Of a stretch of 15,924 nucleotides of DNA, positions 1,608 to 15,924 are shown one piece after another. The notes beneath the pieces were generated by a model that searched no databases, had not been told where the DNA came from, and saw only the letters and a list, made by a program, of their open reading frames with translations. The translations under genes were made by a program, and so were the position numbers. Numbering within the stretch: the first letter of the stretch is position 1; every line of letters begins with the position of its first letter. The DNA is from Candidatus Poribacteria bacterium (GTDB taxonomy: Bacteria > Poribacteria > DTPJ01 > WJIO01). The DNA lies in assembly GCA_014730235.1 (NCBI GenBank), contig WJIO01000243.1, forward strand, positions 1 to 15,924. Reading direction: 5' to 3'.

Positions 1608-1701
1608 TGTCATTCCTGCTTCAAGCTTTTTGAAAAGCTTGAAGCAGGAATGACAGCATAAAGAAGTTTCTCATCTTTACCACGCTGAACCTGGAAGAAC
1701 C
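1608..1701 (-). repeat. Dispersed palindromic repeat, family A, copy 2
   Basis: This is the same element as at 1065-1158 in the opposite orientation. Its palindrome lies at 1608-1655 (23-bp arms, 2-nt loop). The far end reads GGTTCTTCCAGGTTCAG on the minus strand. The inner 78 bp (1608-1685) are identical to copy 1, while the outer 16 bp differ at four positions. Together the two copies form a long inverted repeat around 1159-1607. Confidence 0.85.
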
Positions 1702-1844: not shown

Positions 1845-1883
1845 GAGTAGTTTGGGGTTGAGTCTGCGAAACCCAACCCACTC
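1845..1883 (-). terminator. Imperfect hairpin downstream of the B12-uptake unit
   Basis: On the minus strand a 15-base arm (1883-1869) pairs with 1859-1845 with two mismatches and a 9-nt loop. It begins 24 bp after the lipoprotein stop codon, where a terminator is expected. It is not followed by a clear U-tract (AATTATAAAATC), so it may only protect the 3' end or act together with Rho. Confidence 0.4.
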
Positions 1884-1906
1884 TTGATCAAAAGATTAAA
1901 TCTTAA

Positions 1907-2941
1907 TTATTCCCTTATATCAACATACCCCGCACCTCCACCGGGTGCATAAGTTCCAGCCAGATTACCCGAAGCATCCATAATAAGCAGTTGATCATTA
2001 CCTGATCCCATCCAGTCAGGAACACATATATACCCGTTACCATCGTCGTCAAAAGCCAGACCTGATCCACCCTCAAAATCAGCCATAGGCGCGCCGATTG
2101 ATCCGGAAAGCAGATCAACCTCAATAAGCCCCTCAAAGGCTGTAACATAGGCATTGCCATCAGGCGATATGGCCAAGCCATAAGGCGTGGTATTCAGATC
2201 GATAGTATGGGTTACAGAATCCGAAGTTGAATCAATCACGTAAATCTGTCCGAGTATATCGGCATAATTGCCGGTACATTGCACAACTACAACACTACCG
2301 GATACCACTATTTCCGTGGCATTTATGCCAACGGGAATATCTTTTACAACAGAATCAGAGGATGTATCAATCACGGTTACACTGCCGTCACCGTAGGACA
2401 TGGCACTGGTATCCAGATCAAAAACAGCGTTGCTGTTGCAGACATAAACCTTATCCCCTGCCGCTGCAACCCCCCAGGGTGTAACCCCCACATCAATTGT
2501 TTTTGTTACCTGATATGATGACAGGTTGGCAGCTACTGTAGTATTATTGGTGTTGCAGGATATATAAGCTTTATTTCCTGCAAACGCTATCTTCTCAGGA
2601 CTGCTGAATTCCCCTGTGTCAATAATGCCAACCTGGGTAAGGCCGTCCAGTTCAAAAACCTGGACGTTATTATCACCAGTATTGACCACATAGGCTTTAT
2701 TTTCTTTAATCTTAATATCATTGGGCCATTTACCCACAGTAACCACGTCGTTTTGCATTTCATTGGTCTCAATGTCAAACACCGACATGGTTTCTGCCAG
2801 ACCGTTTATAATATATGCCGCCTTTGATACTTCCGGTATTATTTCCTCGTCTTCCTCATCATCTTCGCCACAGCCTAACAGCATTACTGACAACATCAAA
2901 CTCAATAATATGGCAAGAAGCTTATTACTTACTCTTTGCAT
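1907..2941 (-). CDS. Seven-bladed YVTN-type beta-propeller lipoprotein, probable BtuG-like B12-binding partner of the receptor
   Basis: The 344-residue product has a lipoprotein signal ending in LLGC, with the modified cysteine at residue 24. An acidic linker (GEDDEEDEE) follows. The rest divides into seven repeats of about 40 residues with the YV-N / VIDT-SVV-I-VG / P-G-A pattern (for example KAYVVNTGDNNVQVFEL, GSVTVIDTSSDSVV, GQIYVIDSTSDSVT), which fits a seven-bladed propeller. The ATG at 2941 has GAAGGAGA just upstream, inside the end of the receptor gene. The gap to the receptor stop is 1 nt, so the two are co-transcribed from the cobalamin riboswitch. In Bacteroides, BtuG is a surface propeller lipoprotein that captures B12 for BtuB. 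The same role here is inferred from fold and context. Surface or periplasmic location cannot be decided from the sequence. Confidence 0.85.
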   Translation of the reverse strand: MQRVSNKLLAILLSLMLSVMLLGCGEDDEEDEEIIPEVSKAAYIINGLAETMSVFDIETNEMQNDVVTVGKWPNDIKIKENKAYVVNTGDNNVQVFELDGLTQVGIIDTGEFSSPEKIAFAGNKAYISCNTNNTTVAANLSSYQVTKTIDVGVTPWGVAAAGDKVYVCNSNAVFDLDTSAMSYGDGSVTVIDTSSDSVVKDIPVGINATEIVVSGSVVVVQCTGNYADILGQIYVIDSTSDSVTHTIDLNTTPYGLAISPDGNAYVTAFEGLIEVDLLSGSIGAPMADFEGGSGLAFDDDGNGYICVPDWMGSGNDQLLIMDASGNLAGTYAPGGGAGYVDIRE

Positions 2942-2942
2942 T

Positions 2943-4886
2943 TCAATCTCCTTCTAAACCAAATGATGTTTTAACCCTCCACTCCCTTCCGGGAAGGGGA
3001 TAGTCGGCCACCATCTGATATTCTGTATCAAATAAATTTTTAATCTCAAAAACAAAGCCTGCTTTTAAATTTTTCCACACTCTCCTTTCCAGGCCTATCT
3101 GCATATCGTGTTTAATATATGGCTCAAGCCATTTGGTATTCTGAAGGGTGGTATAGCGGCGGCTTTGATAAGATCCGCCGACTTGCCACCATATATCTCT
3201 ATTCTGTATTCGCAATCTGTACCCAAGGGAATTGGTAGGACGATATATTAACTGCCTGTCCAGCATATCCTTTGCGAATAATAAATTATGGTTTAAGCCA
3301 AGAAAGATAAAATCCGGAATCTGCTTGAACGGTATTTCAATTTGTAGTTCACTTTCCAAACCCGTTGATGTGGCCTCTGATAAATTCTGAGGAGACCATT
3401 TACCATCAGGGCCGGGAGTCCATTGAATTCTATCTTTAAATTCGTTTCTAAATAATGTAGACCCAAGCCGAAAATCCGATATGTAAGATAAAAAAGACTG
3501 CTGCGAAACATTTATATAAAATCCCGCATCGGCATTTAACGATGTCTCAGGATTCAAATCTGGATTTCCCACAGCAAAAGCATCTGAGGGCCAGTATAGA
3601 TCGTTCATGTTGGGCGCTCTGTAAGAAATTCCAATGTTACCTCTAAAAGCCAGAGAATTTTCATCCCCAAAGCTTGTCAAAAAACCAATTTTCGGGCTTA
3701 GACCTGCATTGAAATCTGAATAATGATCCCATCTGATGGCTGGAAATATGGATATCCCTTTTAATCTGAACGGATTTTGACCAAATTCCCTTTTTATTTC
3801 CTGTTGGGCATAAAAGCTGTATGTTTCCCGCTTTTTAATTCCCAGGGCAGTGCTGTCCATGACTTCATCCCGAAGATATACGCCAGCAATTATTGGTATC
3901 TTTGTTTCAGGCAGAAATCGGAACTGGAATTCTGAATCCATTACCCTGTTCTTGTGGGTATCGTCAGTGGGATATGGCATCTTTGGATTTATATACCTGA
4001 GACTGGTCTTACGCCCCTGTATATTTACATTAAAATGGAAAAATGATAAAGGTTGGTAGTTAAAATGGGTTTTAATTTCATTTACTTTATCTTTTTTGGA
4101 GGCATCCGGAGTATAAAGCCCTACAGGACCCGGATCACCCTTGACTGAGTATGAATGACCGCCTGAGGCCCTGAGGTCAGCCTTTGATGATATATTCCAG
4201 TTTATCTTACCAAAAATATTCCTAATTTTGGATTGGGCGTTTTCCCGTATCATTTCCCTGTCAAATTTATCCCTGAAGGGAAAATCCGCTTCCGCTTTGG
4301 ATTGAGAGAGGGTTACAAGGCCGGAAACATTATCACTGGTTCTGGATGTCTCTATACCCCAATTATATGCGCTGTAAGAACCCATTGACGACCAGGCTTT
4401 TACCTTCGATGATACAGGATTTTTGGTAATAATATTAATAACTCCACCCACAGCATCGGCTCCATACATGGCTGAATTTCCACCTTTGACTATTTCTATC
4501 CGGCTTATACTGTTCAGGGGAATATTGTTGAGATCCACAACTCCGCTGCGAGAGTCATTTATCCGCTGCCCGTCCAAAAGCACAAGTACCTGTTCAGATG
4601 AGCTTCCCCGTATTGATGCCATTGCAAATCCCCCCGGCCCATAATCGGATATGTTTAGGATATTACTTGTTTCCAGTATTTGCCCTAGATTAGTGGATGC
4701 CGAAGATTGTATCTGGACAGGCGAGATTATATGTGATGAAGAGGATATGTTTTCAAGACTTGCTGGATTCCTGGTGGCACTGATGATTATATCATCAAGC
4801 TCAATTATCTCTATTTCATTTTCCTGGGCGTGTATACTAAAGCTGTAAAAACAAACGAAAAGTATTATGAATAATCTTTTAAACAA
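2943..4886 (-). CDS. btuB: TonB-dependent outer-membrane receptor, probable cobalamin transporter BtuB
   Basis: The 647-residue product would carry corrinoids across the outer membrane using TonB energy. A signal peptide ends near SIHAQ (residues 18-21), and a TonB-box-like DDIIISATRN follows. The plug domain (roughly 35-160) contains ILETSNILNISDYGPGG, SIRGSSSEQVLVLLDGQRIN and IEIVKGGNSAMYGADAVGGV, all typical of the BtuB/siderophore receptor family. The remainder forms the beta-barrel. The C-terminus ends SFGLEGD rather than in the usual aromatic residue. The start is TTG at 4886, with GAGG 8 nt upstream; no better start is nearby. The upstream cobalamin riboswitch supports B12 as substrate. 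A cobinamide or other corrinoid preference remains possible. Confidence 0.88.
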   Translation of the reverse strand: MFKRLFIILFVCFYSFSIHAQENEIEIIELDDIIISATRNPASLENISSSSHIISPVQIQSSASTNLGQILETSNILNISDYGPGGFAMASIRGSSSEQVLVLLDGQRINDSRSGVVDLNNIPLNSISRIEIVKGGNSAMYGADAVGGVINIITKNPVSSKVKAWSSMGSYSAYNWGIETSRTSDNVSGLVTLSQSKAEADFPFRDKFDREMIRENAQSKIRNIFGKINWNISSKADLRASGGHSYSVKGDPGPVGLYTPDASKKDKVNEIKTHFNYQPLSFFHFNVNIQGRKTSLRYINPKMPYPTDDTHKNRVMDSEFQFRFLPETKIPIIAGVYLRDEVMDSTALGIKKRETYSFYAQQEIKREFGQNPFRLKGISIFPAIRWDHYSDFNAGLSPKIGFLTSFGDENSLAFRGNIGISYRAPNMNDLYWPSDAFAVGNPDLNPETSLNADAGFYINVSQQSFLSYISDFRLGSTLFRNEFKDRIQWTPGPDGKWSPQNLSEATSTGLESELQIEIPFKQIPDFIFLGLNHNLLFAKDMLDRQLIYRPTNSLGYRLRIQNRDIWWQVGGSYQSRRYTTLQNTKWLEPYIKHDMQIGLERRVWKNLKAGFVFEIKNLFDTEYQMVADYPLPGREWRVKTSFGLEGD

Positions 4887-4910
4887 GAAAATACCTCGAA
4901 ATAATAAACC

Positions 4911-4941
4911 AAAAAAAAACCCAACCTCTCAGGAAGTCGGG
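4911..4941 (-). terminator. Riboswitch-controlled intrinsic terminator
   Basis: On the minus strand a 9-bp stem (4941-4933 with 4928-4920, including two wobble pairs) with a CTGA loop is followed by nine T residues (4919-4911). It lies between the cobalamin aptamer and the receptor start, the standard place for an expression platform. Its ascending arm contains GACTTCC, which can instead pair with GGAAGTC in the B12-box region (5036-5030). This gives a plausible antiterminator when B12 is absent. Confidence 0.8.
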
Positions 4942-5011
4942 GATTCAAAATTATATAAAAATAGATAATATATCTCACCGTCAACCTTCCCGCGAAGGCA
5001 TCAAGTAAAAA

Positions 5012-5158
5012 CTAACAGGCAGGTCTCCTGACTTCCGGATCATCCTACTTCCCAACCTTCCCAGACATTTACATGCTGGTGGCATATTTGGATTTCGTTC
5101 CCGGTCACAGTGGCGGGGCCGTGACAGATTTACACTGTCTTCCCTAACACCTGAATAG
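5012..5158 (-). promoter_or_regulatory. Cobalamin (adenosylcobalamin-type) riboswitch aptamer
   Basis: Read on the minus strand the element runs from GGTGTTAGGGAAGACAGTG through GCCCCGCCACTGTGACCGGG and GCCACCAGCATG. It ends in the diagnostic B12 box GTCAGGAGACCTGCC. These match the conserved core of cobalamin riboswitches. It precedes the BtuB-like receptor, and with the following terminator it should switch off transcription of the receptor and lipoprotein when cobalamin is plentiful. Confidence 0.95.
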
Positions 5159-5163
5159 TTTTG

Positions 5164-5185
5164 TATTCAATTTTCAATTTGAATA
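5164..5185. repeat. Inverted repeat overlapping the transcription start region
   Basis: TATTCAA (5164-5170) and TTGAATA (5179-5185) are 7-bp inverted arms with an 8-nt spacer. They lie immediately downstream of the -10 element and before the aptamer. This could be an operator or a weak 5' hairpin of the riboswitch transcript. There is no further evidence for either. Confidence 0.3.
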
Positions 5186-5213
5186 GTATACAATATTTAT
5201 ATTACCAAGGCAA
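5185..5213 (-). promoter_or_regulatory. Sigma70-type promoter of the B12-uptake unit
   Basis: On the minus strand a -35 box TTGCCT (5213-5208) and a -10 box TATACT (5190-5185) are separated by exactly 17 bp of AT-rich sequence. The start of transcription would fall near 5178, about 20 nt before the aptamer. Position and spacing make this the likely promoter for the riboswitch, receptor and lipoprotein unit. Confidence 0.7.
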
Positions 5214-5308: not shown

Positions 5309-5383
5309 GGGTTCTTCCGAGTTTAGTGTGGTAATAATTTGTAAATTCTCTCAACCTGTCATTCCTGCGAAAGCAGGAATCCA
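5309..5383 (+). repeat. Dispersed palindromic repeat, family A, copy 3
   Basis: The element starts GGGTTCTTCCGAGTTTAGTG, continues GTGGTAATAATTTG and ends with ATTCCTGC (5361-5368), a GAAA loop and GCAGGAAT (5373-5380). Compared with copies 1, 2 and 4, the palindrome is the short form lacking the TTCAAGCTTTT extension, and it finishes with CCAG rather than GACA. Confidence 0.75.
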
Positions 5384-5405
5384 GTAGATAAGACTGTCAG
5401 GGGTA

Positions 5406-5548: not shown

Positions 5549-6043
5549 CTAACCTCTCGCTATCTCCACAGCGTGAGGTAACGCCGGCAAAATAACCGGA
5601 AGCGTCTCCTTAACGGCTTTGGGACTGCCGGGAAGGTTAACAATGATGGTTTCATTACAAAGACCGGAGACGGCTCTGGAGAGCATACCATGCGGCGTCT
5701 TTTTTATACTTTCGGCCCGCATAGCCTCTTCAAATCCGGGTATGCGCTTATCAATAACGCTGAGGGTGGCTTCTGGTGTAACATCTCTGGAACTTAGGCC
5801 GGTTCCACCTGTAGTTACAACCAGGTCAAGGTTCATGACATGGGCAAATTCTTTCAGGTTTCTTGCTATCTCATCTTTTTCATCAGGCACGATTTTGTAT
5901 TCTACAATCTCAGCGCCTATAGATTTCAGTATTTCCTCGATAACAGGCCCACTTTTATCTTGTCTTTCACCTCTGGAAGATCGATCGCTTACGGTCAGTA
6001 TAGCGGCTTTAATCTCTATATTACTGGGCCTTCCATGTTCCAC
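5549..6043 (-). CDS. mogA: MogA/MoaB-family molybdopterin adenylyltransferase
   Basis: The 164-residue cytoplasmic enzyme would adenylylate molybdopterin before molybdenum insertion. It has the family's core motifs: [17 protein letters not shown] (17-32), TTGGTG (77-82) followed by RDVTPEA, and NLPGSP (136-141). Its length is normal for single-domain MogA/MoaB proteins. The start is GTG at 6043 with a GAGGGGG ribosome site about 5 nt upstream. The nearby ATG at 6036 is out of frame. The gene overlaps the end of moaC by 23 nt, a sign of translational coupling, and is the last gene of the operon. MogA and MoaB cannot be separated firmly by sequence reading alone. Confidence 0.9.
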
Positions 6044-6506
6044 TTTTACCCCCTCTTTTTTCCAGAAGCCTTATTTCGGAAATAGTCATACCTCTGTCAA
6101 TTGCTTTACACATATCATAAATAGTTAAAGCCGCAACGCTTACGGCTGTAAGGGCTTCCATTTCCACTCCTGTTTTTCCTGTGGATGTAACCTTTGCGGT
6201 GATGATAATCCCTGCTCTATCGTTTTCCATAAAATCTGAAAAATCCACTTCTACACCGGTTATAAGGATAATATGACATAGTGGTATAAGTTCTGATGTC
6301 TTTTTGGCTCCATTGATACCGGCGATCCGGGCGGTTGCCAGAACATCACCTTTGGCTATCTCCGAAGCCCGGATTTTCTCCAGTGTCTCCCTGCGCATAT
6401 AGATTTTACCCTGGGTGATGGCTGTGCGTCGGGTATCGTTTTTATCCGAAACATCAACCATCCGGGCTCTGCCGGATTTATCTATATGAGTTAGGTTTTT
6501 ACTCAT
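6021..6506 (-). CDS. moaC: Cyclic pyranopterin monophosphate synthase MoaC
   Basis: MoaC works with MoaA to convert GTP to cyclic pyranopterin monophosphate, the first step of molybdenum cofactor synthesis. The 161-residue product has the full family signature: ARMVDVSDK, a lysine at 52 (AKGDV), SELIPLCH (71-78), GVEMEAL with Glu115 and Glu117, and YDMCKAID with Asp131 and Lys134, which correspond to known active-site positions. The ATG at 6506 has an AGGTGGA ribosome site. It follows moaA by 6 nt and overlaps the mogA-like gene, so the three are one unit. Confidence 0.97.
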
Positions 6507-6512
6507 TTTTTA

Positions 6513-7490
6513 TTATCCACCTACTTTTGACATGTTTCTGTTTGTTATTTTTAGTCCATTTTCGCAAAGTCTGTGACCCTGTGGTTTTGCCAGCATGGCT
6601 TTGTGAAGAACAGCTTTAATCTCATCATCTGTACCTCCGGAACGCAAAGGAGTTTTTATATCAATTTCCCCATCCGAATGAAGACAGGGCAAAAGCCTGC
6701 CATCGGCTGTAAGTCTAAGGCGATTACATTGATCACAGAATTTGTGGGAAAGGGATGCTATAAAACCGATCTTGCCTTTATGTCCATCAACTGAGTAATC
6801 ATAAGAAGGTGAACCGGAATATGAACGCTTGATTTCTATCAGCTTATATTGATTCTCGATTATTGCCCTGATTTCATCAGCCGATACAAATCGTTTTTCG
6901 CTCCAATTATTGCGGCTGAATGGCATAAGTTCAATAAATCTTACCCAAAGTTTTTTCTCTCTTGTCAACTCCACAAAATCGAGAATTTCGTCGTCATTTA
7001 TTCCCTTAACCACCACAACGTTTATCTTTATGGGATCAAAAGCAACTTCCAGAGCCAGATTTATTCCTTCTATAACCTGTTGGAAAAGGTCAAATCTTGT
7101 GATCTGCTGGAATTTTTCCCTGTCAAGGGTATCCAGGCTTATATTTAAACGCTTCAAGCCTGCATCTTTTAGCTCATGGACATATTTTGTTAAAAGCGTT
7201 CCGTTAGTGGTTAGGGCCAGGTCAATATCATTACCCAGGCATGATATAGATTTTATAAGCTCTGTAAGTCCTTTACGGGCCAGCGGTTCACCGCCGGTAA
7301 TCCTGAATTTTCTGAAACCCAACTCATAAGCAAGACTGCTTATCTTTATTATCTCCTCATACCTGAGAATATTCTTATGATTCATAAGGGAAATACCTTC
7401 TTCAGGCATGCAGTAAACACATCTGAGATTGCATCTGTCAGTGACAGAGATTCTCAGGTAATCTATTTTTCGTCCATATTTATCATTCAT
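6513..7490 (-). CDS. moaA: GTP 3',8-cyclase MoaA (radical SAM)
   Basis: The 325-residue product is a complete MoaA. The radical-SAM cluster motif is C20-N-L-R-C24-V-Y-C27. The SAM-binding ITGGEPL motif is at 64-70. The C-terminal second [4Fe-4S] cluster is ligated by C252, C255 and C269 (FCDQCNRLRL, LLPCL). The protein ends in the conserved double glycine (SKVGG) that is needed for GTP cyclisation in the family. It rearranges GTP for MoaC. It starts 3 nt after the stop codon of the DUF523 gene, so it is translated from the same transcript. Confidence 0.97.
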   Translation of the reverse strand: MNDKYGRKIDYLRISVTDRCNLRCVYCMPEEGISLMNHKNILRYEEIIKISSLAYELGFRKFRITGGEPLARKGLTELIKSISCLGNDIDLALTTNGTLLTKYVHELKDAGLKRLNISLDTLDREKFQQITRFDLFQQVIEGINLALEVAFDPIKINVVVVKGINDDEILDFVELTREKKLWVRFIELMPFSRNNWSEKRFVSADEIRAIIENQYKLIEIKRSYSGSPSYDYSVDGHKGKIGFIASLSHKFCDQCNRLRLTADGRLLPCLHSDGEIDIKTPLRSGGTDDEIKAVLHKAMLAKPQGHRLCENGLKITNRNMSKVGG

Positions 7491-7493
7491 TAA

Positions 7494-8462
7494 TTATAAA
7501 TTTCTACCTTTACCCGAATCGCTTATCTCCACCAATTCCTCCGGATATGGGTCAAAGAATGTCTGCTGTTTCAGATAACTCTCTTCAAATCTGATTATAA
7601 ATGATCTGAGAATATTTAAAGGTACACTGAGAGGAATACGGTCTTCCCTGTATCTCTCAAGGGTATCCAGGAAGAATTGTTTTTCTTCTGAATTCAGTTT
7701 ATCCGAAAAATATCCCAGCCCGTGCATCAATACATTAATATTTGCGGTGGGTTTGGAGAAGCTGTATAACGATTCATGGAGACGGTTTTCGTATTTTTCA
7801 ATAACTTCCGAAATATCCTTTTTGCTGGCATCAGCCACAATCCTGCCCATCTCTCGCATTTTCTCTTGATTATATGCCAATAATAGATGTTTGTTTTCTG
7901 AATGAAACCTGACTAACTCAGCTACAGTTCCGGAATCTTTAACTTTTCGAAAGTCTGATAACGTAAAAAGCTTGGTCAAAAAGTGTTCCCTGATCTGGAA
8001 GTTCTTTAGCCTTCCCTCGTTCTCTACCGAAAGGTTGGGATATTTTTTCAAAACCGCCATCCCGAAAAATCCAGCACTCCGGGTAGCTGGCATAGACTTT
8101 TCTATATCTGGATACACCTTGACATCCTTGGACCCACATGAAGGAGACCGGGATTTCAATATAAAACCGTCTGCATACCCCACAGAATCCAGAAAAGAAG
8201 ATGCAAAATCCTCCATTTTCCGGGTAATGTCAAGACCTGTGGCTGGCTGCATAAGCTTTAATTCTTCCCCTGATTGAACCATGCGTATAGGCTCTCTGGG
8301 AACACCAAGACCAACCTCCATCTCCGGGCATACAGGTATGAAATCAACATAATCCCTTAGCTTTGTTACGAGATCGTCATTTATAATAGCACCGTTATAT
8401 CTACAATTGGCAAAACCAAGACACTTGCTAACCACTACCACAGGCTTGACAAACTGTCTCAT
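7494..8462 (-). CDS. DUF523-DUF1722 (YbbK-YbgA) fusion protein
   Basis: With the preferred ATG at 8462 (GGAGAGAG just upstream) the product has 322 residues. An in-frame TTG at 8498 would add 12 residues but has a poorer context. The N-terminal half is DUF523: KCLGFANCRYNG (C14, C20), VCPEMEVGLGVPREPIRM (C45) and SRSPSCGS (C109). The four cysteines are suited to an iron-sulfur cluster, as in the thiouracil desulfurase TudS of this family. The C-terminal half (about 185-305) is DUF1722, marked by FHSENKHLLLAYNQEKMREMG. It is the first gene of the transcript that continues into moaA, moaC and the mogA-like gene. A sulfur- or cofactor-related role is plausible from this context but is not shown. 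Confidence 0.88.
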   Translation of the reverse strand: MRQFVKPVVVVSKCLGFANCRYNGAIINDDLVTKLRDYVDFIPVCPEMEVGLGVPREPIRMVQSGEELKLMQPATGLDITRKMEDFASSFLDSVGYADGFILKSRSPSCGSKDVKVYPDIEKSMPATRSAGFFGMAVLKKYPNLSVENEGRLKNFQIREHFLTKLFTLSDFRKVKDSGTVAELVRFHSENKHLLLAYNQEKMREMGRIVADASKKDISEVIEKYENRLHESLYSFSKPTANINVLMHGLGYFSDKLNSEEKQFFLDTLERYREDRIPLSVPLNILRSFIIRFEESYLKQQTFFDPYPEELVEISDSGKGRNL

Positions 8463-8525
8463 TTTTCTCTCTCCACAATAATTAATCACCAACCCCAAGC
8501 ATAAAATTTATGTCCGTGAAAACTT

Positions 8526-9319: not shown

Positions 9320-10798
9320 CTATTCCATATCCTCCCCAATAAGCTCAGCCGCCATCTTCCCGGATAGAAGCACCAGGGGAATGCCCCCGCCTGGATGCAC
9401 GCTGCCCCCTGCAAAGTAAAGCCCCTTTATTTGACGACTCCGGTTGGCATGGCGTTTAAATGCCATCATCCTGCTGTTAGAAGATATTCCATATATGCTT
9501 CCCTTGTTGCTGTTATAAAGATTCAGGAAATCCAGCGGTGTATATACTTTCTCAAATTCTATATTATTTGATATATCAATACCTGTTTTAGTTAATTTTG
9601 TCAATACTTTTTTCCGCATCCTGTCTATTTCCAGCGACCAGTCCTGATCATCTGTGATATAAGGCATATTCAACAATACAAACCAGTTTTCTCCACCAGA
9701 AGATGCGTGTTCCGGGTCTGCCTTGCTGGTTATGGATACATAAATCGTAGGATCATCCGGTGTTTCGCATTTATCGAATATCTGTCTGAATTCCTCTTGA
9801 TAGTCCTTTGAAAAGATAATATTATGGTGCTTAAGCTCAGGATTTTGTTTGTTTATACCCCAAAGAAAGACTATCCCTGACAGAGACGGCTCAAGGCTAT
9901 TCATTTTATCTTTCAAAACAGGATAACCCTTAATCAAAGTATTATAAGTAACAACTGCATCCGCACCACATAATACATAATCCACATCAAATCTCTCACC
10001 ATCAGCAAAAACACCGGAGACAAAATCATTTTCCACAATAATTTCATCTACCTTTGTGGATGTATATATCTCCACTCCCAGTTCTTCCGCCATATTAATA
10101 AGGGCTTCCACAAGCCGATATATCCCCCCCTTTACATAATATCCCCCCAAACCATATTCTACATAGCATATAATATTCAGGGTAGCCGGGGCCTTGAAAG
10201 GATCAGAACCGCTGTAAGTCGCATAACGGTCAAATAACTGGATAAGTCGTGGATCGGAAAAATATCTTGATACCCCTTGATGTACAGAACGAAAGGGATC
10301 CATTTTATATAACTTAAATAGCGTTGACAAATTCCCTTTTTTTAATACTTTATCCATTTCATGTATAGGCGTATAAAGAAAGACATCGGCGGTCAAATCA
10401 TATATATCTTTACAGTAAGAGATAAATTCATCATAAGAATCCGCGTCTTCAGGGGATAATTTGCTGATTTCGTCTATCATTTTTTCCCTGTCTGCGCTGG
10501 CATCCATAATGGAACCATCGGGAAAGAAATATCGGCAAATAGGATCAACAGGGACAAATTCCAGCATTTCAGACCGTTTAAATCCGGCAAAATCAAACAA
10601 TTCATCAATAACAAAATCCATTGTCAGCAAAGACGGGCCTGTGTCAAAACGATATGATCCTGATACCACCTCGTTTGTCTTTCCACCCAGCTTCTCGTTT
10701 TTCTCAAACAACTGGACATCAAAACCCATACAAGCCAGCCGGATAGCACCACCCAGCGCGCCTAAACCACCGCCTATTACCGCAACCTTTTTACTCAT
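9320..10798 (-). CDS. crtI: CrtI-type carotenoid (phytoene) desaturase
   Basis: The 492-residue flavoprotein matches the CrtI family. It has an N-terminal FAD-binding fold VAVIGGGLGALGGA (5-18) with Glu32 ending the second strand, a KLGGKTNEV segment, RFDTGPSLLTM, and a C-terminal GLYFAGGSVHPGGGIPLVL motif close to the canonical FAD-closing signature. Such enzymes desaturate phytoene stepwise to neurosporene or lycopene at the membrane. Related enzymes (CrtN, CrtD) act on other substrates and cannot be excluded. The gene begins 6 nt after the outer-membrane protein gene and ends the cluster. CrtB upstream supports phytoene as substrate. Confidence 0.9.
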   Translation of the reverse strand: MSKKVAVIGGGLGALGGAIRLACMGFDVQLFEKNEKLGGKTNEVVSGSYRFDTGPSLLTMDFVIDELFDFAGFKRSEMLEFVPVDPICRYFFPDGSIMDASADREKMIDEISKLSPEDADSYDEFISYCKDIYDLTADVFLYTPIHEMDKVLKKGNLSTLFKLYKMDPFRSVHQGVSRYFSDPRLIQLFDRYATYSGSDPFKAPATLNIICYVEYGLGGYYVKGGIYRLVEALINMAEELGVEIYTSTKVDEIIVENDFVSGVFADGERFDVDYVLCGADAVVTYNTLIKGYPVLKDKMNSLEPSLSGIVFLWGINKQNPELKHHNIIFSKDYQEEFRQIFDKCETPDDPTIYVSITSKADPEHASSGGENWFVLLNMPYITDDQDWSLEIDRMRKKVLTKLTKTGIDISNNIEFEKVYTPLDFLNLYNSNKGSIYGISSNSRMMAFKRHANRSRQIKGLYFAGGSVHPGGGIPLVLLSGKMAAELIGEDME

Positions 10799-10804
10799 AG
10801 TTTC

Positions 10805-11653
10805 TTACCTGACATAAAACCCCAATGAAATCGAACTTGTATGAAGCCAGTTATCAGTAAAACCATCCCCGGGTCCTTTGTCGTCTTCATCTGTGCCTTT
10901 TGCGCCGCCGCCCACATAACGTATATTCAGATATGCGTCTATATGATCCGTCAATTCAAAACCAACACGACCAGAGGCATCCAGGATAGCTCCCTCAAAG
11001 TCGTTTTCGCTTCCTGTTATATATTTTCCTGAAGCGTAAAAACCGTCTATTTCCGTACCGATCCACATACCGTTTCCAAAGGGATACTTACTCCGCAGCT
11101 TAAAAATAGGAACCGGGCCCACATCTTCATTAATCCTGAATAACTCACCATCAGCCGAAGCAAAGCTAATGGTTGCATTGCGTATCTGGAAGGACAATCC
11201 CAGAGCCAGCTCCCGGTCCTCCGCAGACCACAGATCATATAGATAGCTAAGGCGATAAAAGCTGAATCCGTAACGAAGCTTCATCTGTGTTCCTTCAGGA
11301 AACGTCAGATCATCAATTACCACATCCCTGCCCAGCAGGACTTCTGTCCTTATATCCAGGGGTTGGATAAGAAATATAACGGTATGACGCTTTCCCAGTT
11401 TAATATCAGCCGTAAGCCGATAGAAGGGAAAAAGAACACCCTGACCGCCTTCATCTACATAATTGAACTTTGTGCCGTTTTCACCAAATTGTATATTATG
11501 TTTCAATACATCCAGAAAACCTACTTCCAGATTTGTCTGTAATTTATACCAGTTGCTTTCCCTGTTGAGAAATGAAGCTTCTTCTGAATATACGTTAAAT
11601 GATGTCAAAAATATCATAGCAAACGTTATTGTAAGAATCAATTTCAGTCGCAT
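10805..11653 (-). CDS. Predicted outer-membrane beta-barrel protein of the carotenoid cluster
   Basis: No family is recognised. The 282-residue product has a signal peptide ending near VYSEE (residues 22-26). It then shows a succession of alternating amphipathic strands (for example YRLTADIKLGKRHTVIFLIQ, LALGLSFQIRNATISFA, MWIGTEIDGFYASG, IDAYLNIRYVGGG) and ends SSISLGFYVR with an aromatic near the terminus, all typical of outer-membrane barrels. A GGQG and acidic-loop pattern (KGTDEDDKGPGDG) looks like an exposed loop. A GGGAGAAG ribosome site precedes the ATG. It is tightly packed between the LolA-like gene (11 nt) and crtI (6 nt), so it probably serves the pigment pathway, for example in pigment placement in the outer membrane. 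Confidence 0.65.
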   Translation of the reverse strand: MRLKLILTITFAMIFLTSFNVYSEEASFLNRESNWYKLQTNLEVGFLDVLKHNIQFGENGTKFNYVDEGGQGVLFPFYRLTADIKLGKRHTVIFLIQPLDIRTEVLLGRDVVIDDLTFPEGTQMKLRYGFSFYRLSYLYDLWSAEDRELALGLSFQIRNATISFASADGELFRINEDVGPVPIFKLRSKYPFGNGMWIGTEIDGFYASGKYITGSENDFEGAILDASGRVGFELTDHIDAYLNIRYVGGGAKGTDEDDKGPGDGFTDNWLHTSSISLGFYVR

Positions 11654-11664
11654 ATCTTCTCCCT

Positions 11665-12417
11665 TTATTCTTCTTGATCCTTGAAAACAGAGTCAACTAT
11701 TCCCGTATTAAATTTATAATTAGAATATTCATCTTCTATTTTTATATTCAAATAGAATATAAAGCTTATTTTTATAGTCAAATCCATCTTAAATTTAGCA
11801 GGCATCCAATAACCCTGGGTATGTTTATAATCCATTGAAAGGTCAATATTTTTAACAACCCGGGATTTCTTGGATGGCTCAAATTCTGCCTTTATTATAT
11901 CATAAGTGTCTTTGGAAATATATCCTTTACCGTTTATATAATCCTCCTTTTTTTCCTTCGATTTAAATTCCACCACCCATACAGGTATATCTTTTACAAC
12001 TTCACTTCCCAACAGAGAAAACTCATAAGCTCCTTCACCCTCTGGTGAAAGAGGCATTATAATATCGTCTGAGCGAGAGTTATCTTTCCATTCCTCTACT
12101 TCCGCGTCAAACTCCTCGCCTGTTAATTCTTTCCCATTAACTATAAGACGTAGGTATTCTTCAAACTGCCTGCCATCCTGCTTTTTATAAATATGCCTGT
12201 ATCCTATTACATCTTTTTTTATTTCATCCTTTTTCCCGAATTCCTTATAGACAAATTTTGCGTCAAACACCGCATCTTTTATTTCCTGATTTATCTTTCT
12301 CTGCTGTTCTTTAGCCTTTTTGACAATTTCCTTAAGTTCTACTTCCTGACATATCAAAGGGATTTCAATTAAAATAAAAACAAAAAATACTACAATACAA
12401 GCAACAAACCTTTTCAT
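11665..12417 (-). CDS. Secreted LolA-like protein (outer-membrane lipoprotein-sorting type fold)
   Basis: The 250-residue product has an N-terminal hydrophobic export signal (residues 4-22, ending PLICQ, not a good lipobox). The rest resembles the LolA/LolB-type half-barrel: repeated beta-strands such as VVEFKSKEKKEDYINGKGYI, TYDIIKAEFEPSKKSRVV and LSMDYKHTQGYWMPAKFKMD. LolA itself carries lipoproteins through the periplasm, and LolA-like proteins also occur in aryl polyene pigment clusters. Here it lies between the glycosyltransferase (25 nt) and the barrel gene (11 nt), which suggests transport of a lipidic pigment. The fold assignment is by pattern only. An AGGAG lies 10 nt before the ATG. 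Confidence 0.6.
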   Translation of the reverse strand: MKRFVACIVVFFVFILIEIPLICQEVELKEIVKKAKEQQRKINQEIKDAVFDAKFVYKEFGKKDEIKKDVIGYRHIYKKQDGRQFEEYLRLIVNGKELTGEEFDAEVEEWKDNSRSDDIIMPLSPEGEGAYEFSLLGSEVVKDIPVWVVEFKSKEKKEDYINGKGYISKDTYDIIKAEFEPSKKSRVVKNIDLSMDYKHTQGYWMPAKFKMDLTIKISFIFYLNIKIEDEYSNYKFNTGIVDSVFKDQEE

Positions 12418-12442
12418 ATACTCTATACTCCTGAAGGGTAAT

Positions 12443-13603
12443 TTACCACCATTTTATTTCATGTCGGGCAAAAGTTCTGCCTTTCCAGTTGGCCTGACCC
12501 GTTAAAGCAAAAGTTAATGAACCAAAAGCAATACTGAGGATAAGAACCATGTTTACAGGATAAAGAAGGGCCAGATACAATGGAAAGCGAAAACACCAGT
12601 TAGAAGCTAACCATATCATAAAAGCCAGAAAAACGGCAACACCTGCCAGATCCATTGTATACATGGGAAAATCTATGCCCAACAGTTTCAATATTATCAA
12701 AATAAGCGGCTGCAAAAACATAAATCCAATCCACAACCACACAAATATAAATTTAATTATTTTATATCCAAAACCGGCAAACAGGTTTTTGGTAAATCCG
12801 TTATAGGCCTCCTGGAAACTGTGATACATCCTGCACCCGATTCTATCTTTACCATTTACCATTCGCCATCGCAGTCCAGCCTCTTTTATGTTCCTGGCCA
12901 ACTGCACATCATCCACAACGTTATTTTTCAAAGCTTTATGACCTTCTATACGCTCATAGGCTTTCCTTTTAAACATCATAAACTGACCAATAGCAGCAGA
13001 TAAGGTTGGTGAATTGGTTTTATAAGCTATTACTAGAGGAAGAAATCCAATAATAAACCAGGGAAAGAGTGGAACCATAAGCCTTTCCCCCCACGTTACC
13101 ACTTTTTCACAGGGGAAAGCCGTTAATAAATCAGCGTTTTTTGCACGCATAGCAGCCACACCATCCCGTATTAAATCTGGATGATGTTGTGTATCCGCGT
13201 CGGTAAATAAAAATATATCCCCATCAGCTTTCTGTGAAAGCTGATGACAGGCCCAATTCTTCCCAAGCCAGCCAGCCGGTAGTGGTTCTCCCTTAAATAT
13301 TTTTAACTTATCATTCTCTTCTGCCAGTTCTGACAGAATTTTCCAGGTTCTATCCGTTGAATTATCATCCAGCACAATCACCTGAAAATCCGGGTAATAT
13401 TGAGCCAATAATGATTCCACACAGCTTCTGATATTATCTTCTTCATTCCTGGCCGGAACCATCACAGAAACTCGTGGAAACCTTGACGGCATAGGGTAAC
13501 GACCCAGATTGCCAAGTATTTTTATATTGGTCAGGGTAATTATCAGTATGACAAAAAGAAATATTATTATACCTACCTGATGAGCCGACCAGATGATATT
13601 CAA
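12443..13603 (-). CDS. Membrane-bound family 2 glycosyltransferase, probable carotenoid glycosyltransferase (CruG/CrtQ type)
   Basis: The 386-residue product has an N-terminal membrane segment (about 10-28). A GT-A catalytic domain follows: PRVSVMVPARNEEDNIRSC (43-61), LDDNSTDRT with D79/D80, the metal-binding TDAD (134-137), and VVDDVQLARNIKEAG (229-243) carrying the likely catalytic acidic residues. Three further membrane segments lie at about 283-307, 319-335 and 341-364. The WKGRTF near the C-terminus is shared with CruG- and CrtQ-like carotenoid glycosyltransferases. It would attach a sugar to a carotenoid hydroxyl or carboxyl at the inner membrane. The start is TTG at 13603, because an in-frame stop lies just upstream and GAGG/AGG precede it. 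Confidence 0.82.
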   Translation of the reverse strand: MNIIWSAHQVGIIIFLFVILIITLTNIKILGNLGRYPMPSRFPRVSVMVPARNEEDNIRSCVESLLAQYYPDFQVIVLDDNSTDRTWKILSELAEENDKLKIFKGEPLPAGWLGKNWACHQLSQKADGDIFLFTDADTQHHPDLIRDGVAAMRAKNADLLTAFPCEKVVTWGERLMVPLFPWFIIGFLPLVIAYKTNSPTLSAAIGQFMMFKRKAYERIEGHKALKNNVVDDVQLARNIKEAGLRWRMVNGKDRIGCRMYHSFQEAYNGFTKNLFAGFGYKIIKFIFVWLWIGFMFLQPLILIILKLLGIDFPMYTMDLAGVAVFLAFMIWLASNWCFRFPLYLALLYPVNMVLILSIAFGSLTFALTGQANWKGRTFARHEIKWW

Positions 13604-13646
13604 TGATACCTAACCTCGATTCCTAAACTTGTCATTATTTTATGAT

Positions 13647-13669
13647 GGGCAATGCCCTTTCATGAGGGC
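13647..13669 (-). other. Intercistronic hairpin between plsY and the glycosyltransferase
   Basis: GGGC/GCCC (13647-13650 and 13654-13657) and GCCCT/AGGGC (13654-13658 and 13665-13669) share one arm, so two mutually exclusive stems are possible. They lie in the 95-nt gap that interrupts an otherwise tight operon. This may be a processing or attenuation site or a small dispersed repeat. Confidence 0.35.
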
Positions 13670-13698
13670 GAAACTCCTGCTAAGCTTTTTCTTCTTTG

Positions 13699-14277
13699 TT
13701 AAAATCGCTTAAGCTGAATCTTTTGGTTTAAATCATATCTATGTTTCCACACCAGAATAAAGGTATTAAAAACCCATACCAGAAGTATAAATACACCAAC
13801 TTTTCTGATCAATATATAAATAAGAAGTCCAGACATGGAAAACATCACAGCCCAGCCATCTACAGAAATTATTGAATTGAATACCCCGAGACCGATGCCC
13901 AGCACAATCGGGCCTTCCCCTACCAGCAGACCAGTCCAGATACCAAGAGTAGCGGCTACAGCTTTCCCACCCCGAAATTTAAGAAAAGGTGAAAAAGCAT
14001 GACCCAATACAGGCGATATGGCAATTATTACCAGCCACCAACCGGTGATTTTATTTCCATAATTTGCTAGTGCAACAGGCCCAGCAGCTTTTGCATAATC
14101 CAGCACCATCGCCGGAATTCCAAGTTTGTAACCCCCGGCCCGAAAAGCATTGGTTGCACCCGGATTTCCGTCTCCGTAATTCCTGACATCTTCACAGATA
14201 AATAATTTCCCCAACAATACCGAAAAAGGTATTGAACCGCAGATAAAGCCTATTAATGTCAAAACTGCCGGATTCAT
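13699..14277 (-). CDS. plsY: Glycerol-3-phosphate acyltransferase PlsY
   Basis: The 192-residue integral membrane protein would transfer an acyl group from acyl-phosphate to glycerol-3-phosphate, the first step of phospholipid synthesis. All three family motifs are present: GSIPFSVLLGK (from 14), YGDGNPGATNAFRAGG (about 34-49) and GHAFSPFLKFRGGKAVA (about 92-108). The hydrophobic pattern fits the usual multi-span topology. It starts 14 nt after the cruF-like gene with only a weak ribosome site, so it is probably coupled to it. Its place inside a carotenoid cluster is unusual. It may be the cell's ordinary PlsY or a copy used for pigment acylation. Confidence 0.92.
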   Translation of the reverse strand: MNPAVLTLIGFICGSIPFSVLLGKLFICEDVRNYGDGNPGATNAFRAGGYKLGIPAMVLDYAKAAGPVALANYGNKITGWWLVIIAISPVLGHAFSPFLKFRGGKAVAATLGIWTGLLVGEGPIVLGIGLGVFNSIISVDGWAVMFSMSGLLIYILIRKVGVFILLVWVFNTFILVWKHRYDLNQKIQLKRF

Positions 14278-14291
14278 ATTCTTATCATCTG

Positions 14292-15047
14292 TTAAACTTG
14301 TTTAAAACGCTCCTGATTTCTAAAATAAATAAAATAAGACAGAGCTACAAAAAATCCCATACCCAAAAATCCAAAAAGAGCCGCCCCTTCAAGATCCCAA
14401 AAAATTATAAGACCAGCCGTTTCCATTATCCAGGTTAAAATATAGACTAAAAACAGCAGATTCACCGGAATTTCCTTTGGCCGTATCATCAATGTAACAA
14501 TAAAAGCAGTCAAAAACCATCCAGCAAAGTTAATCCAGGGAATTCCAAAATATCCGCCATTTTCATGCCAGGTCCACAACCCCCAGTGGACCATCTGAGG
14601 ATCAAGAAAAAGATCCCATGCGGTAATCGCTAGACCGCTGATCAAAGCAAAGAAAAAAAACGAGGATGATCCGGCTATCCGTCTCGCCACAGCCCACGAA
14701 GGAGGAAGCATCATAAGCCATGCCAGGGGAATTAATAATGGCACTCCCAATAATTGTGGTTGTAATTTATCAGTATATGTGTAATCTCCAAAAGGAAAAC
14801 CTGTAGAGGCCCCAATAGCCTCAATAAACCATGTAAAAGATATTATAACACCTGCAATAAAAAGCGAACTTTTTAGTCCGGTATTTAAGATCAGGGAAAC
14901 AAAAACAACAGTAGCTTGAGCCAAAACACTTATACTTATGAATATAGTAAAAATATCCCCACCCCACCATTTTTCAACAAAAGGCATAAAAAGCATTATT
15001 ATAAGCCAGACGGGGATTAATAAGAACGGTATTTTCCTTAAATTCAT
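14292..15047 (-). CDS. cruF: Carotenoid biosynthesis membrane protein, CruF/DUF422 family (carotenoid 1',2'-hydratase-like)
   Basis: The 251-residue protein has about seven hydrophobic segments. It carries the DUF422 pattern: FIEAIGASTGFPFGDYTYTD (74-93), LLGVPLLIPLAW (99-110), TAWDLFLDPQM (142-152) and GIPWINFAGW (168-177). Characterised members (CruF in cyanobacteria and Deinococcus) add water to the psi end of acyclic carotenoids, making a tertiary hydroxyl that a CruG-type enzyme may glycosylate. The glycosyltransferase two genes downstream fits this. The ATG at 15047 has AGG directly before it, too close for a good ribosome site, and an in-frame TGA just upstream rules out an earlier start. 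Confidence 0.85.
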   Translation of the reverse strand: MNLRKIPFLLIPVWLIIMLFMPFVEKWWGGDIFTIFISISVLAQATVVFVSLILNTGLKSSLFIAGVIISFTWFIEAIGASTGFPFGDYTYTDKLQPQLLGVPLLIPLAWLMMLPPSWAVARRIAGSSSFFFFALISGLAITAWDLFLDPQMVHWGLWTWHENGGYFGIPWINFAGWFLTAFIVTLMIRPKEIPVNLLFLVYILTWIMETAGLIIFWDLEGAALFGFLGMGFFVALSYFIYFRNQERFKQV

Positions 15048-15345
15048 CCTGCTGAAATCACTTATACTTTTATATTGTAATTATTAAAAAATGAATATTA
15101 CTTAATTGTTATTCTGAGCAGAGCGAAGAATCTCATCTCCCCTTTTTCAGAGGGGTATTAAGGGCAATGGCACTTACTTGGTATTCACTGTTTTTCCCAG
15201 GATTGCAACCGTTAGCCATTTAATTCTATGCTTCATTATAGAATTCATCATTCCTACCTTCGCAGGAATGACAGTATATAGAGTTTCTCATTATCACTAC
15301 ATTTAATCTTGAAGAGCCAGATAATTTTAAGAAAAGGTATATTGA
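15048..15345. other. 298-bp gap between crtB and cruF with repeats
   Basis: No gene is seen. It contains a TTCTGAGCAGAGCGAAGAATCT-like dispersed motif (about 15110-15134), a CCCCTTTTTCAGAGGGG hairpin (15139-15155) and family A copy 5 (15248-15319). The gap makes it likely that cruF and the genes after it have their own promoter, but none could be assigned with confidence. Confidence 0.55.
15248..15319 (-). repeat. Dispersed palindromic repeat, family A, copy 5
   Basis: Read on the minus strand it begins GGCTCTTCAAGATTAAATG, continues GTAGTGATAATGAGAAACTC and ends in TCATTCCTGCGAAGGTAGGAATGA-type palindromic sequence (arms 15248-15255 and 15264-15271). It is the most diverged of the five copies and has the short palindrome. 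Confidence 0.65.
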
Positions 15346-15924
15346 TCAAAATTCCATAACAGCATCATATCTTTTTGATCGCCACCATATCCCCGGAAGA
15401 CGTCGAATTTTACCCCAGTTACTCACATAGGCCCGGCGATTAAAGACATCGTAATCATTGGCTTCAATGTCTTCCAAAATCCCTCGATATAACTCAGCCG
15501 CCGCAGAGATTGAAAACCTACCATCAGCATCAAGCATCCCGATTCCCGGTATCGCTTCATCATATAACTGACGGTTTCGATTTATCTGAAATTTCATAAA
15601 CTCACGCCATCGTTGATCAACTTTTCCAGCGGCAATATCATTCTCAGTCAAACCAAAATCACTCAATTCATCCTGAGGTAAATACAAACGTCCATTTTGC
15701 CAGTCTTCACCCACATCCCGAAGTATGTTGTTGATTTGAAGAGCCACACCAAGCTTTATGGCGTAAGGTATGGCTTCCGATCCGGTAAATCCAATTATAT
15801 ACATAACCATCAGACCCACTGTAGAAGCGACACCATAACAATATTCAGTCAGTTCTTCAAAGTTAGAATATCGCGTTAACACCAGATCCCTGGCCACACC
15901 ATCAATAAGCTGTTGTGCATAGCC
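15346..15924 (-). CDS. crtB: Phytoene synthase CrtB (C-terminal part; runs off the right edge)
   Basis: The frame is open to the window edge, giving 192 residues and a stop. The first residues seen are [14 protein letters not shown], part of the conserved middle of squalene/phytoene synthases, followed by [12 protein letters not shown]. The second aspartate-rich motif is [19 protein letters not shown], with D70 and D74 counted from the edge, and binds the diphosphate-magnesium complex. CrtB joins two geranylgeranyl diphosphates to phytoene. The GTG at 15897 is internal and not a start. The carotenoid genes downstream favour phytoene synthase over squalene or hopanoid relatives. Confidence 0.88.

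Follow-up and report, generated by a model that had tools for sequence, protein, structure and literature searches.

Can a TonB-dependent receptor and a repeat-bearing lipoprotein, encoded one after the other behind a cobalamin riboswitch in Candidatus Poribacteria, form a vitamin B12 capture pair of the kind known from BtuB and BtuG of Bacteroides, and would such a likeness reflect common descent or convergence? The question is raised by positions 1907-5213 of a 15,924-nucleotide (nt) stretch of DNA, hereafter the window, taken from a poribacterial genome of 5.5 Mb in 451 contigs (window contig, WJIO01000243.1). An earlier sequence-only reading had proposed a BtuBG-like pair, either convergent or distantly related. 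With good confidence, the locus can be regarded as a B12-salvage operon encoding a BtuBG-like capture pair, the lipoprotein of which would bind B12, reside at the outer membrane and contact the receptor. The observations that carry this reading comprise (i) the riboswitch and the gene order, (ii) the propeller fold and its homology to BtuG, (iii) the conservation of the pair, and (iv) the exchange of the propeller's partner within the phylum, together with the nesting of the exchanged forms in the propeller tree.

The riboswitch, the receptor and the propeller lipoprotein

The RF00174 match (gathering score, 31.5 bits) and the open reading frame (ORF) coordinates establish the order already recognized in the sequence-only reading, a cobalamin riboswitch followed by a TonB receptor and, 1 nt further on, by the lipoprotein (Table 1). 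The extent then given to the element stands for the riboswitch itself but not for its outer limit, the aptamer boundary being 5169 and position 5213 marking the edge of a weak promoter-like match. The earlier repeats and lipobox were both recovered, the former by NHL and YVTN repeat models and the latter, LLGC at residues 21-24, as a pattern match only. Between the aptamer and the receptor gene lies a terminator-like hairpin, of which shuffled sequence yields 0.3 per region; the minimum-energy structure calculated for the leader contains it too, with a z-score of only -1.7 for the fold as a whole.

Table 1. Coordinates of the operon features in the window
Feature	Position	Strand	Evidence and remarks
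Cobalamin riboswitch aptamer, RF00174	5169-5001	-	cmscan 104.2 bits, E 1.3e-25, whole model covered (1-189)
Intrinsic-terminator-like hairpin with T9 tail, candidate expression platform	4941-4920	-	pattern scan, 9 pairs
BtuB-like TonB-dependent receptor with signal peptide	4886-2943	-	ORF, TTG start, 647 amino acids
Seven-bladed beta-propeller lipoprotein, BtuG-like	2941-1907	-	344 amino acids, starts 1 nt past the receptor stop codon

Directly past the lipobox Cys, the lipoprotein displays the acidic stretch GEDDEEDEE, and the calculated isoelectric point of the mature protein is about 4.05. An AlphaFold2 model built with 31 aligned sequences comprises a complete seven-bladed propeller (predicted local distance difference test, 93.3; predicted template modelling score, 0.87), closest to BtuG and to the generic YVTN surface-layer (S-layer) propeller. 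Structural alignment of the model with the seven-bladed BtuG structures by VIA-align gives Z values of 32-36 over 290-304 residues (about 298), with 20-24% identity. A mixed profile, including Bacteroidota rows, matches BtuG1 (8blw_B) with E 1.4e-69 and BtuG2 with E 2e-53, both collinearly; a Poribacteria-only profile still reaches BtuG1 with E 1.9e-21, nearly all of its strong matches being BtuGs and the archaeal S-layer propeller 1l0q. The alignment between profile and BtuG runs collinearly for most of its length and places Trp310, invariant in the Poribacteria set, on Tyr335 of BtuG2, a residue that touches the adenosyl ligand (PMC10404256). At the level of sequence, these profiles add weight to the BtuG homology beyond what the fold conveys.

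The receptor carries a TonB-box-like DDIIISATR near its mature N-terminus and the Pfam domains Plug (82 bits) and TonB_dep_Rec (102 bits), both far over cut-off. Its top-scoring NCBIfam model is TonB-B12 (TIGR01779; 153.8 bits), and its PDB matches include BtuB from E. coli and BtuB1 from B. theta, also the colicin I receptor. Judging from the riboswitch and the lipoprotein partner, its substrate would be cobalamin.

A single-protein scan of the genome contigs gave no relative; an alignment-based scan found relatives, and a homologue of the lipoprotein is present in 84 of the 97 genomes searched, the window's own included. Outside the window's genome there are 83 best matches, and 79 of them display a same-strand cobalamin riboswitch upstream, which in 74 cases is the sole one detected in the genome. 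The riboswitch lies directly upstream of the propeller in 68 cases, 187-602 nt before the match and with no receptor between, and in 11 homologues the spacing is big enough for further genes. Receptor-propeller pairs among these 11 occur in G001, G057 and G079, in G040 and G078, and in the non-Poribacteria genomes G084, G086 and G092; BtuR/CobO shares the operon with the pair in G079 (L037), and CobT lies downstream of the propeller in G057 (L039). Other Poribacteria share the riboswitch-receptor-propeller triple, as do Bacteroidota, Ignavibacteriota and Calditrichota; since cobalamin riboswitches precede this gene order in phyla both related and unrelated, it is not a product of chance. An exclusive link between propeller and receptor was rejected on account of the 68 relatives with riboswitch and propeller but no receptor, which tie the propeller to cobalamin regulation itself. 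As a separate observation, a cobalamin riboswitch, NrdD (anaerobic ribonucleotide reductase) with an intein, a radical S-adenosylmethionine-like protein and the propeller lipoprotein form one operon in G016 (L038, 210-5675).

Three cobalamin riboswitches were detected in the window's genome, the second preceding a BtuF-like/FecCD operon and the third an apparently broken receptor reading frame. On contig C383 of this genome (L074, 5431-6373), a riboswitch stands before a seemingly interrupted TonB-plug frame, with genes for a NikR-like regulator and for a TonB receptor, the latter intact, further on. The gene cbiC was not found in the window's genome and was found in just 3 of the 84 poribacterial genomes searched (G016, G074 and G079), and B12-binding domains occur in 96 of the 97 genomes; with cbiC not found and B12-binding domains present, the window's organism is therefore very probably a B12 salvager. 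At low intracellular cobalamin, the riboswitch, with the terminator hairpin after its aptamer, would let expression proceed, and the BtuB-like receptor and the BtuG-type lipoprotein would then be made together. By analogy with BtuG, the lipoprotein may sit on the outer membrane, capture corrinoids with its acidic face and hand them to the receptor for TonB-driven import, the riboswitch-controlled BtuF-like/FecCD system encoded elsewhere in the genome presumably taking them across the inner membrane.

The propeller with another partner in sponge-type Poribacteria

Most of the phylum keeps a riboswitch-controlled propeller without an adjoining receptor. No BtuB follows the propeller in the sponge-type loci examined, and TonB receptors of other kinds are present in these genomes. 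The sponge-type propellers comprise a signal peptide without a lipobox and frequently a dockerin tail. A GVSC lipobox pattern seen in 13 of them was rejected, as it lies upstream of the likely start and the signal peptides end in AQ-, SQ- or GQ-type sequences without a Cys. In G004 (L043, 5835-8964), the C-terminal part of the propeller protein comprises dockerin and sorting-tail-like domains, and a cohesin domain is encoded by the gene after it, which suggests a cohesin-dockerin tether.

The next gene in most sponge-type loci encodes a hitherto undescribed lipoprotein of 600-700 amino acids without Pfam assignment, hereafter the membrane lipoprotein, followed by a WD40/PQQ-type propeller of about 560 amino acids; no B12 function was found assigned to either. 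The operon comprising the riboswitch, the propeller, the membrane lipoprotein with its immunoglobulin (Ig)-like and helical regions, and the WD40/PQQ-type propeller is conserved in loci L050, L051, L083-L091 and L095-L125. The membrane lipoprotein is present in 69 of the 97 genomes, all from four poribacterial families. Among the contig loci, 30 display the membrane lipoprotein and no adjacent receptor, and 16 display an adjacent receptor and no membrane lipoprotein. In G004, it has a riboswitch of its own (contig C33, 63025-63223; gene match from 63395), on a separate contig from the riboswitch of the propeller. The midpoint-rooted tree of 37 propellers discloses a sponge-type group (support 100/100) that nests inside a poribacterial set otherwise mostly receptor-linked (99/99), and because of this nesting in the sequence tree the receptor-linked arrangement would most simply be ancestral.

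The membrane lipoprotein carries an N-terminal lipobox, and its model comprises an Ig-like beta region (residues 38-449) and a helical C-terminus (453-662). A fold search with the whole protein was dominated by its Ig-like part: all matches were to Ig-like, pilin and integrin structures, and none was to an S-component of energy-coupling factor (ECF) transporters; PDB sequence searches gave no matches, hence no solved S-component. The Pfam family ABC_cobalt, which for all its name corresponds to YkoE, an ECF S-component related to thiamine, weakly matches two of 15 C-terminal sequences (E 0.0021 at best). Alignment of the C-terminus with four YkoE-type proteins by hhalign gives 77% (P 2e-5), against at most 0.7% for the controls, comprising the reversed sequence and seven other membrane-protein sets. 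Pfam ECF_trnsprt is nearly absent from the phylum, and most sponge-type genomes contain exactly one EcfT/CbiQ gene, directly preceded in G035 by a double ATP-binding cassette (ABC) ATPase. FecCD is missing in five of the six single-contig genomes with the membrane lipoprotein (G019, G035, G037, G045 and G047) and present in G010. Genomes of the sponge-type clade lack cbiC, and many are also without BtuC. The EcfT gene, the FecCD pattern and the YkoE likeness together fit an ECF-type B12 importer. It is possible, if somewhat short of probable, that in sponge Poribacteria a BtuG-type propeller without a lipid anchor, often with a dockerin, feeds the Ig-like/ECF S-like membrane lipoprotein, which would import B12 through the single EcfT module and not through a TonB receptor. 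The propeller would then have lost its lipid anchor and receptor, become coupled to the conserved membrane lipoprotein and come to act as a periplasmic or secreted B12-binding protein, in what may be a partner swap from an outer-membrane receptor to an ECF-like inner-membrane transporter.

Alternative readings and the relation to BtuG

Several observations weigh against a BtuBG-like pair. The receptor fails the TonB-B12 equivalog cut-off (153.8 versus 599.7 bits), and in a phmmer search the colicin I receptor slightly outscores BtuB; owing to the missed cut-off and to the near parity of the two among solved structures, the receptor is labelled BtuB-like and not BtuB. The propeller 1l0q matches the lipoprotein model as well as BtuG does (VIA-align Z 37.7), other seven-bladed propellers start near Z 33, and since 1l0q scores as high as BtuG the fold alone gives no function. 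With the Poribacteria-only profile, 1l0q outscores BtuG. In the alignment, the BtuG2 residues Trp194 and Trp272 show no conservation, and Trp194 is apparently not conserved in BtuG1 either.

The equal structural match of the generic S-layer YVTN propeller and the divergence of both pocket tryptophans would suit a receptor that imports B12 alone, as in E. coli, beside a propeller that shares the operon as a structural or adhesive surface protein. This is nevertheless quite improbable, given the 68 relatives whose riboswitch is followed at once by the propeller and by no receptor, and the recurrence of the receptor-propeller pairing in several phyla. That the system captures cobalt, another metal complex or some other ligand whose supply depends on B12 status is very unlikely. 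Cobalt transporters can also be under cobalamin riboswitches, and the sponge-type membrane partner weakly matches ABC_cobalt, as described above; this name misleads, however, the family being that of thiamine-related YkoE. Most of these genomes are without detectable cbiC, so that cobalt would not readily be turned into B12, and the BtuG relatives take complete corrinoids and cobinamide (PMC10404256).

Convergence, in which a B12 receptor acquired an S-layer-type propeller of an origin separate from that of BtuG, would yield the same function from another origin, in keeping with the mere 20-24% identity and with a Poribacteria-only profile that matches generic YVTN propellers as well as BtuG. 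It is unlikely in view of the collinearity of the profile-BtuG alignment over most of its length and of intermediate forms in Ignavibacteriota, Calditrichota and Bacteroidota whose operons are arranged in the same way. Between the two origins left open by the sequence-only reading, a distant relation to BtuBG is therefore favoured and convergence less likely, because the pair recurs in a continuous series through other Poribacteria and these three phyla and the profiles are collinear. The BtuBG-like reading is upheld, as that of a distantly related pair, by the seven-bladed fold of the predicted lipoprotein and by the conservation of the pair behind cobalamin riboswitches in relatives and other phyla, two points that had been left to modelling and genome searches.

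Neighbouring genes and comparison with known systems

Beside the B12 operon, window positions 5549-8498 (minus strand) comprise molybdenum cofactor genes (a MoCF_biosynth domain, MoaC and MoaA-like), then a 2-thiouracil-desulfurase/DUF1722 gene. Positions 9320-15897 display, by eye, an apparent carotenoid cluster, with phytoene-desaturase-like, CruF-like and glycosyltransferase genes and a phytoene-synthase-like fragment at the edge. Several intergenic regions of this genome (window 1611-1655 and 5357-5385; L074, about 4920-5000) share a short repeat around TGTCATTCCTGC...GCAGGAATGACA that resembles repetitive extragenic palindromes (REP) or miniature inverted-repeat transposable elements (MITE). 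In G080 (contig C394; L154, 1263-1845), a HEARO RNA and an ORF (1867-3159) for an IscB-like RRXRR/HNH nuclease begin within 150 nt of a cobalamin riboswitch, which looks like the insertion of an IscB element into the riboswitch leader.

Compared to BtuB-BtuG from B. thetaiotaomicron (PMC6143338, PMC10404256), the window pair shares the cobalamin riboswitch, the TonB receptor adjoining a seven-bladed propeller lipoprotein, the acidic propeller and the acidic residues after the lipobox, whereas it belongs to another phylum, shows the low identity given above and does not conserve Trp194/Trp272; the sponge-type relatives differ further in having neither a receptor partner nor a lipobox. The BtuB-BtuFCD system from E. 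coli resembles the window's genome in its BtuB-like receptor and in the riboswitch-controlled BtuF-like/FecCD operon encoded elsewhere, but is without a propeller partner. The best structural match of the window lipoprotein, archaeal 1l0q, likewise comprises seven YVTN-type blades but is not known as a lipoprotein, as the neighbour of a TonB receptor or as a target of riboswitch control. The helical C-terminal domain of the sponge-type membrane lipoprotein, its weak YkoE profile similarity and the EcfT in the genome recall YkoE-type S-components, whereas the N-terminal lipobox, the large Ig-like region and the lack of a sequence match among solved S-components set it apart from these and from BtuM/CbrT, B12 transporters with an S-component-like fold (PMC6072759).

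In a 2018 survey of 313 gut genomes, BtuG was confined to Bacteroidetes and was described as exclusive to them (PMC6143338), and B12 import by Poribacteria has been hypothesised to be TonB-driven, with no receptor gene named (PMC5087111). No report of the pair or of the sponge-type operon was found in a search of the openly readable literature. BtuG-type propellers stand behind cobalamin riboswitches across Poribacteria and, beyond Bacteroidetes, in Ignavibacteriota and Calditrichota; because they occur in these phyla, lipoprotein-assisted B12 capture looks older and wider than had been supposed. In sponge Poribacteria, the single riboswitch singles out a testable three-gene operon.

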